From Variovorax sp. CAN15 (GTDB lineage: Bacteria > Pseudomonadota > Gammaproteobacteria > Burkholderiales > Burkholderiaceae_C), in NCBI RefSeq assembly GCF_030462475.1, contig NZ_JASMRZ010000022.1:1-64000 (forward strand): DNA of 64,000 nucleotides. Direction: 5' to 3'. Shown one piece after another: positions 6,161 to 8,670 of this stretch (position 1 is the first letter of the stretch; each line of letters starts with the position of its first letter). The position numbers and the translations under genes are program-made. Under the pieces are notes generated by a model. The model was not told where the DNA came from. It was given only the letters and a program-made list of their open reading frames with translations, and made no database searches.

Positions 6161-6177
6161 ATGCAACACAATGGCGT
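6161..6177. promoter_or_regulatory. Candidate Zur operator upstream of zur (degenerate)
   Basis: ATGCAACACAATGGCGT is 16 bp before the zur start codon. It shares the ATGCAA-N5-TTGCAT architecture of the two boxes upstream of zigA, with two mismatches in the right arm. Its position suits autoregulation. Confidence 0.45.
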
Positions 6178-6193: not shown

Positions 6194-6667
6194 ATGAAGA
6201 CCCCGACCTCGCACCCGAAGCCCCCGCGCGCCGCCCCGTTCGACAGCGAAACGCTGCTGCGCGACAGCGGCCTGCGCGTGACGCGCGCCGCCCAGACCGT
6301 GCTCGAACTCCTGGAGCACAGCTCGCAGCCCCTGACGCACGAGGAAGTGGCTGCTGCCTACACCGCCGCCACCGGCGAGGCGCCCGACCGGGTCACGGTC
6401 TACCGCGTGCTCGACCGGCTGGTCGAGGCCGGCCTGTGCGACCGCCGCGTGGGCGCCGACCGGGTCAACCGCTTCTCGCGCCATGTGGAAGCCGAGTCGG
6501 GCAACACCTTCGAATGCGACCAGTGCCACAAGGTGCTGGCCCTGCCCTCCGACCCGGAGCTGCCGAAAGTGATGGGCCGGCTGGGGCGGGCGCTGCGCAA
6601 GCAGGGCATCGATACGCGCCACACGGCATTGACCCTCCACGGCACCTGCGGCGATTGCGCAAGATAA
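6194..6667 (+). CDS. zur: Fur-family metalloregulator, probably Zur
   Basis: This 157-residue protein has a Fur-family winged helix (LLRDSGLRVTRAAQTVLELL, with recognition helix APDRVTVYRVLDRLVEAGL) and a C-terminal metal domain with two CxxC pairs: ECDQC and GTCGDC. The latter pairs hold the structural zinc. I favour Zur over Fur because the closest neighbour (convergent, about 115 bp away) is a COG0523 zinc-type GTPase whose promoter carries the same operator. The histidine-rich HHDH motif of classical Fur is absent. Start 6194 has AAGAAG upstream; an in-frame ATG at 6161 lacks a ribosome site and lies in the operator. Confidence 0.75.
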   Translation: MKTPTSHPKPPRAAPFDSETLLRDSGLRVTRAAQTVLELLEHSSQPLTHEEVAAAYTAATGEAPDRVTVYRVLDRLVEAGLCDRRVGADRVNRFSRHVEAESGNTFECDQCHKVLALPSDPELPKVMGRLGRALRKQGIDTRHTALTLHGTCGDCAR

Positions 6668-6781: not shown

Positions 6782-7975
<1,194 letters not shown>

Positions 7976-7992
7976 GGGAGTTGGCTCCATAT

Positions 7993-8009
7993 ATGCAACA
8001 GGATTGCAT
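7993..8009. promoter_or_regulatory. Candidate Zur box 1 (overlaps zigA -10)
   Basis: ATGCAA-CAGGA-TTGCAT is a perfect 6-bp-arm inverted repeat, 17 bp upstream of the zigA ATG. Its right edge overlaps a perfect minus-strand TATAAT (8013-8008), so bound repressor would block the promoter. Confidence 0.7.
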
Positions 8010-8013
8010 TATA
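8008..8013 (-). promoter_or_regulatory. zigA -10 element
   Basis: TATAAT on the minus strand, between the two operator boxes. The matching -35 position (about 8031-8036) is a poor hexamer and falls inside box 2. This suits a promoter that is occluded when zinc is plentiful. Confidence 0.6.
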
Positions 8014-8021
8014 TGAATCCA

Positions 8022-8038
8022 ATGCAACTGCGTTGCGT
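8022..8038. promoter_or_regulatory. Candidate Zur box 2 (covers zigA -35 region)
   Basis: ATGCAA-CTGCG-TTGCGT differs from a perfect inverted repeat at one base. Its left edge is 29 bp from that of box 1, and it lies 39 bp before the divergent acetyltransferase ATG, so it could affect that gene too. Confidence 0.6.
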
Positions 8039-8076: not shown

Positions 8077-8670
8077 ATGACCGAAGTTTCCGCCCTGCCC
8101 CTGCAACTCGTCTGGCCCTCTCGGGAACATCTCCCCAGCTACATCGCGGCACTGGAGCGCGGCTGGTCGCCCAACAACCTCCGCCCCGAAGCCGGGCAGG
8201 AAGAACTGGCGCAGATCCGCATCGACCCCGCGCGCTTTCTCGCCAGCCTCGTCGACCCGCAAGCCAAGGGCCCGCCCGTCGCGCCGCCCGACGGCGGCAC
8301 CGTGCCGCGCCTGCCGGGCTACCGGCGCTGGATGTGGGACGGCGAGTTCTGCGGCAGCATCCAGCTGCGCTGGCAGCCCGGCACCAACGACCTGCCCGTC
8401 TACTGCCTCGGCCACATCGGCTATGGCGTGGTGCCTTGGAAAGGTGGCCGGGGCTACGCCAAGGCCGCACTGCGCGCCCTGCTGCCCGAGGCGCGCGCCA
8501 GAGGCCTCGACCACGTGGAGATCACTACCGACCCGGGCAACATCGCCTCGCAACAGGTGATCCGCGCCAACGGCGGCGTGCTGGTGGAGGAGTTCGTCAA
8601 GCTGCCCGGGCTCGGCGGCACGCCGGAGCTGCGCTTCCGCATCGACGTGCGGGGTCTCGACGCCCGGTAA
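8077..8670 (+). CDS. GNAT-family N-acetyltransferase
   Basis: This 197-residue protein carries a GNAT fold. The acetyl-CoA loop region reads GYGVVPWKGGRGYAKAALRALL, followed by a helix and the strand DHVEITTDPGNIASQQVIRANGGVLVEEF, which is the usual C-terminal N-x-x-S signature. Substrate unknown. No strong ribosome site is seen; ATG 8077 was preferred over GTG 8047 because conserved sequence begins after it. It is divergent from zigA and shares its operator-containing spacer. Confidence 0.8.
   Translation: MTEVSALPLQLVWPSREHLPSYIAALERGWSPNNLRPEAGQEELAQIRIDPARFLASLVDPQAKGPPVAPPDGGTVPRLPGYRRWMWDGEFCGSIQLRWQPGTNDLPVYCLGHIGYGVVPWKGGRGYAKAALRALLPEARARGLDHVEITTDPGNIASQQVIRANGGVLVEEFVKLPGLGGTPELRFRIDVRGLDAR

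Follow-up and report, generated by a model that had tools for sequence, protein, structure and literature searches.

Paired operator-like boxes at zigA in Variovorax and a proposed Zur-type regulator that differs from canonical Zur

Canonical Zur, as found in Escherichia coli (model NF008646), shares with the system described here a Fur fold, a four-cysteine site, and the control of zinc uptake and COG0523 genes. It differs in its operator, which is of the TGTTATA type, and in the start of the recognition helix, which reads PPTVYRALDFL rather than DRVTVYR. A system that resembles ours in operator sequence is ZUR_D of Desulfovibrio vulgaris and D. desulfuricans, with the predicted operator ATGCAACNNNGTTGCAT upstream of znuABC-zur (Rodionov et al. 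2004, PMC545781). This published consensus is identical to our motif, but Desulfovibrio belongs to the Deltaproteobacteria and has one box at znuABC, whereas we found paired boxes at zigA, and more targets, in betaproteobacteria.

Promoters with two Zur boxes, over the -35 and the -10, have been described for yciC of Bacillus subtilis and znuA of Streptomyces coelicolor (reviewed in PMC6103462). Like zigA, yciC is a COG0523 gene with two boxes, but according to the logos in that review, the boxes of these bacteria are of other sequence types than ours. In the betaproteobacterium Cupriavidus metallidurans, the cobW1 operon has two Zur boxes and is not expressed unless zinc starvation is strong (PMC10882993); the likeness to zigA lies in the type of gene (COG0523) and the number of boxes. 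Haas et al. 2009 (PMC2770081) include an analysis of betaproteobacterial Zur sites, and the logos in that work, or RegPrecise, may already record the use of our operator by betaproteobacteria. The operator consensus (PMC545781) and two-box COG0523 promoters are already known. What is apparently new is the swap of regulator and operator in betaproteobacteria, the clustered spacings of the boxes, and the very small regulon of Variovorax.

We studied a window of 64,000 nt (the whole stretch of Variovorax DNA that was analysed). We estimate a probability of about 86% that both boxes upstream of its zigA gene are operators of a zinc-responsive Fur-family repressor, which is most likely the product of the neighbouring gene at 6194-6667.

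Paired boxes at the zigA promoter

The features of the locus are:

6194-6667, plus strand: Fur-family regulator, proposed Zur-type repressor (PF01475, Fur superfamily, 32.6 bits with a cut-off of 23.1; clade tree; alignment)
6782-7975, minus strand: zigA, COG0523 zinc metallochaperone GTPase (ZigA equivalog NF038288, 694 bits with a cut-off of 600; PF02492 and PF07683)
7985-7988, minus strand: GGAG, probable ribosome-binding site of zigA (from the sequence; present in many aligned leaders)
7993-8009, no strand: candidate operator box 1, ATGCAACAGGATTGCAT, no mismatches to ATGCAA-N5-TTGCAT, where the -10 of zigA ends and transcription is expected to start
8008-8013, minus strand: TATAAT, candidate -10 hexamer of zigA (from the sequence; invariant in the Variovorax promoter alignment)
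8022-8038, no strand: candidate operator box 2, ATGCAACTGCGTTGCGT, one mismatch, in the expected -35 region of zigA
8077-8670, plus strand: GNAT acetyltransferase, divergent from zigA (PF13302/PF00583)

The boxes lie between zigA and the divergent acetyltransferase gene. They start 29 bp apart and flank the minus-strand TATAAT, which overlaps box 1 by 2 bp. An earlier note on this DNA had described this arrangement of a perfect box, a one-mismatch box and a TATAAT between and partly inside them, next to a gene for a COG0523 GTPase with a CxCC motif (which reads CICC) and a Fur-family gene with two CxxC pairs (C108/C111 and C152/C155), and we confirmed each of these observations. The motif that the note proposed, ATGCAA-N5-TTGCAT, is real, but its core is actually 7-3-7, or ATGCAAC-N3-GTTGCAT. 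The note also expected box 1 to block the -10 and box 2 to block the -35. Box 1 touches the -10 just at the latter's end; for the most part, it lies where transcription is expected to begin. Given a spacer of 16-18 nt, the expected -35 does fall inside box 2, but we did not find a -35 hexamer of good quality at zigA, or a sigma-70 site in which both hexamers are present. That the -35 consensus is weak or missing fits a promoter that may be kept silent.

The start codon of zigA is probably the ATG at 7975 rather than the one at 7990, because the stretch from 7990 to 7975 has out-of-frame indels in other Variovorax and because GGAG is found at 7988-7985. The upper ATG is missing in some Variovorax species. 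The closest named match for the locus is in Variovorax sp. OK212, whose ZigA is 95% identical. The regulator gene and zigA are convergent, so they are adjacent yet have separate transcripts.

To estimate how often such sites arise by chance, we used a first-order Markov simulation (150 windows). Sites with up to one mismatch are expected 0.04 times per window, and a pair of boxes within 15-60 bp is expected about 1e-6 times per window (simulation combined with a product estimate). If two mismatches are allowed, there are three sites in the window versus 1.4 expected, which is not significant; we considered the tally of two-mismatch sites uninformative and dropped it. We also rejected autoregulation through a box-like site at 6161-6177, which has two mismatches and is at the level of chance. 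In the entire genome (6.92 Mb), there are only two perfect matches to ATGCAA-N5-TTGCAT, and there are eight sites with at most one mismatch versus three for the reversed motif. Single-mismatch boxes in this genome include one flanked by a PAP2-like gene and a response regulator (L005, C128:48446-48462) and one located above an aquaporin-like gene, at a distance of about 140 bp (L130, C13:98176-98190). We make no claim for a one-mismatch site on C128 that is about 1 kb above a ZrgA-like gene (DUF2796-like by eye) and lies inside a transporter gene.

Across 61 Variovorax genomes, we found 43 perfect sites in 30 genomes, versus three for the reversed control. These sites are not randomly scattered, an outcome that the earlier note had named as refuting its reading: 20 of the 29 loci that we fetched are directly upstream of an orthologue of zigA (90-98% identity). 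When the window was aligned with these 20 promoters, both boxes and the TATAAT were retained in 21 of 21, with the boxes 28-29 bp apart and with the GCAAC/GTTGC core of box 2 in every promoter; note that the 20 loci were chosen for having one perfect box, so the conservation of that box is partly due to our selection, while neither the spacing nor the second box played a part in it.

The Fur-family neighbour and its clade

The cysteines of the regulator's four-cysteine structural zinc site (C108, C111, C152, and C155) are invariant in the alignment of its clade. Against the canonical Zur model (NF008646), the regulator scores 28 bits, as compared to an equivalog cut-off of 167, and every curated model for Zur, Fur, or PerR gives it a weak score. 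Its relatives with solved structures are Fur, Zur, and PerR, about equally.

We built a tree from all of the Fur-family proteins of 14 genomes (a few rows are incomplete, and the Variovorax branch is long). The regulator did not group with canonical Zur but formed a separate clade with proteins from Herbaspirillum, Methylophilus, Methylotenera, and Chitinibacter (local support of 0.96). Within these 14 genomes, the clade was present only in genomes with the ATGCAAC-N3-GTTGCAT box, and canonical Zur was present only in genomes with the TGTTATA box. In the window's own genome, we did not find canonical Zur. The Zur proteins of B. subtilis and S. coelicolor belong to a different branch of the Fur family. 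We propose that the regulator is a non-canonical, Zur-type protein rather than a canonical Zur.

The recognition helix of the clade begins with an invariant DRVTxYRxLD. The Variovorax regulator is just 31-37% identical to clade members from other genera, and it does not have the HxHAH stretch that other clade members have before the first CxxC. This absence, along with the long branch, implies that the sensor site in Variovorax may differ.

With a profile for the clade, an order-wide search of 150 genomes identified 45 that encode a member; the members score 109 bits or more, and the next best proteins no more than 81. The 45 genomes contain 43 perfect TGCAACN3GTTGCA sites, and the 105 genomes without the clade contain 18 (reversed control: 3 and 8). 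Some sites are intragenic, and we treated perfect sites inside genes (such as C150 and L006) as chance. A site was present in 23 of 45 genomes with the clade versus 16 of 105 genomes without it (Fisher P = 1e-5, uncorrected for the kinship of the genomes), and 15 of the 43 perfect sites are 26-439 bp from the clade gene itself. Of 121 genomes from the wider GTDB family, just 5 encode a clade member, and two of these are Variovorax, so the clade's distribution there is patchy.

The same division is seen at zigA. Among 78 regions upstream of zigA from diverse Proteobacteria, 7 had TGCAACN3GTTGCA (at most one mismatch), 39 had a TGTTATA-type box, none had both, and 32 had neither; the shuffled controls gave 0 and 0.3%. 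The TGCAACN3GTTGCA sites were in Variovorax, Herbaspirillum, Methylophilus, Methylotenera, Chitinibacter, and one metagenome-assembled genome (MAG). Transfer of zigA between two of the genomes (G085 and G133) was considered and rejected: a partial match is 89.5% identical, but at full length the identity is 72%.

Candidate targets of the operator and competing explanations

The targets with a site upstream are:

ZnuA-family operons (znuACB): L281, L283, L287
AztAB-like operons: L159, L160
ZIP transporters: L285, L289
ZnuD-like receptor: L162
TonB receptors: L161, L170, and probably L294
zigA and another COG0523 gene: L278, L282, L296

The target of the site at L284, first taken to be a TonB receptor, is actually a prolyl oligopeptidase and was not counted.

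In the genomes that carry the clade, operators precede zinc-uptake genes of related betaproteobacteria (znuACB, aztAB, ZIP, and ZnuD-like genes), although the ZIP gene of the window's genome is an exception. The earlier note had anticipated hits before znu, other COG0523 genes, and the genes for zinc-independent ribosomal proteins. We found the first two kinds, and saw none of the third among the targets that we examined. The target set elsewhere consists of zinc genes, which points to zinc. Together with the co-occurrence of the box and the clade, it supports the note's view that zigA is controlled by Zur, with the amendment that the regulator is non-canonical; we consider Zur-type control of zigA to be very likely. 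If so, then an unnamed clade of the Fur family is tied to zinc, and the motif could be used to annotate zinc regulons in betaproteobacteria where searches for canonical Zur find nothing.

From these patterns, we infer binding, repression, and zinc as the effector. If zinc is ample, zinc-loaded dimers of the repressor would occupy the two boxes, mask the -35 region as well as the -10/start region, and silence the zigA promoter. If zinc is depleted, the repressor would leave the DNA and ZigA, a GTPase that is thought to pass zinc to client proteins, would be produced. The clade appears to use ATGCAAC-N3-GTTGCAT in place of TGTTATA-type boxes.

The boxes might instead be read by another protein. 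The same genome encodes a second uncharacterised Fur-family protein that is histidine-rich and has four cysteines (C19:10194-10607, L176), beside an ABC-2-like transporter. If this protein bound the boxes, which would suit a genome without a detected canonical Zur, then the gene at 6194-6667 would have another role. However, the C19 protein is distinct from Fur, from Zur, and from the regulator's clade, and the boxes adjoin the clade gene in many families. Furthermore, the sole Fur-family proteins of Methylotenera, Methylophilus, Chitinibacter, and one Herbaspirillum are Fur itself and a member of the clade, and the box is retained in the first three. We consider a role for the C19 protein at the boxes to be improbable. 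We would give a similarly low chance to a metal other than zinc, such as cobalt, nickel, or manganese. The metal choice of Fur-family proteins is hard to infer from sequence, the sensor residues of the regulator differ from those of E. coli Zur, and COG0523 proteins also handle cobalt; but the targets elsewhere are zinc genes, including the ZnuA and ZIP families and the AztAB-like, ZnuD-like, and ZigA proteins.

It is more doubtful still that the pair of palindromes is an RNA hairpin or some other non-operator element, or that it belongs to the acetyltransferase gene. The boxes do lie between two divergent genes, and a weak hairpin resembling a terminator is predicted on the plus strand at box 2. 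On the other hand, the box recurs in many unrelated promoters with fixed arms and a variable centre. The DNA above the boxes, on the acetyltransferase side, is largely unrelated among the aligned Variovorax promoters, so the acetyltransferase gene is probably not the regulated one. Repression of zigA by a zinc-responsive member of the regulator's clade remains our preferred reading.

Box spacing and the apparent Variovorax regulon

The spacings of box pairs at zigA, at aztAB, and near the clade gene, taken from different genera, are mostly 28, 37-40, or 47-48 bp; one pair is spaced at 33 bp and another at 50 bp. A periodicity of 10.5 bp is supported by a Rayleigh test (P ~ 1e-4) and by simulations of uniform spacing (P = 0.00035), but there are just 17 values, some of which are from related genera, neighbouring periods fit about equally well, and a cluster near 38-39 bp drives part of the signal. 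These data suggest helical phasing of the paired boxes.

In the window's own genome, znuA was not found, and we saw no good box near the single ZIP gene or near any of the five other COG0523 genes, so the regulon of Variovorax looks very small. It may comprise zigA and perhaps a two-partner secretion pair. The genome's other perfect box (C106:252647-252663, in L218, C106:252500-264000) is upstream of this pair, which consists of a ShlB-type transporter and an exoprotein of 2,889 amino acids with filamentous-haemagglutinin repeats, and a second Variovorax (G017, L166) retains a box before its homologue of the transporter. This suggests that the two-partner system is under zinc control. This apparent regulon of nearly one gene raises the question of how zinc import is controlled. 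By analogy, we expect zigA to be one of the last zinc genes that are induced, because the two-box cobW1 of C. metallidurans is expressed only at strong starvation.

A broader scenario, which we hold tentatively and at somewhat less than even odds, is that a second, betaproteobacterial type of Zur replaced canonical Zur in scattered lineages, regulator and operator together; that the phased pairs of operators (28, 38-40, and 47-48 bp) imply defined contacts between dimers; and that the Variovorax regulon is almost only zigA, possibly with the two-partner system. The zigA promoter would then be a natural case of coordinated replacement of a regulator and its operator.

Two other groups of genes were seen near boxes. 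In several families, a MacB-like ABC ATPase and an FtsX-type permease are beside boxed zinc genes (L278, L282, L289, L295, L159, and L160), once along with a histidine-rich ZrgA-like protein; this recurrence was judged by eye, and the ATPase also by family match. The pair is possibly an unrecognised transporter for zinc starvation. In two Variovorax genomes (G059 and G060; L163 and L169), perfect boxes are found upstream of a carboxylesterase-family gene and of a lipoprotein-like gene that has no annotation; these genes may be members of the regulon, or the boxes may be chance matches.
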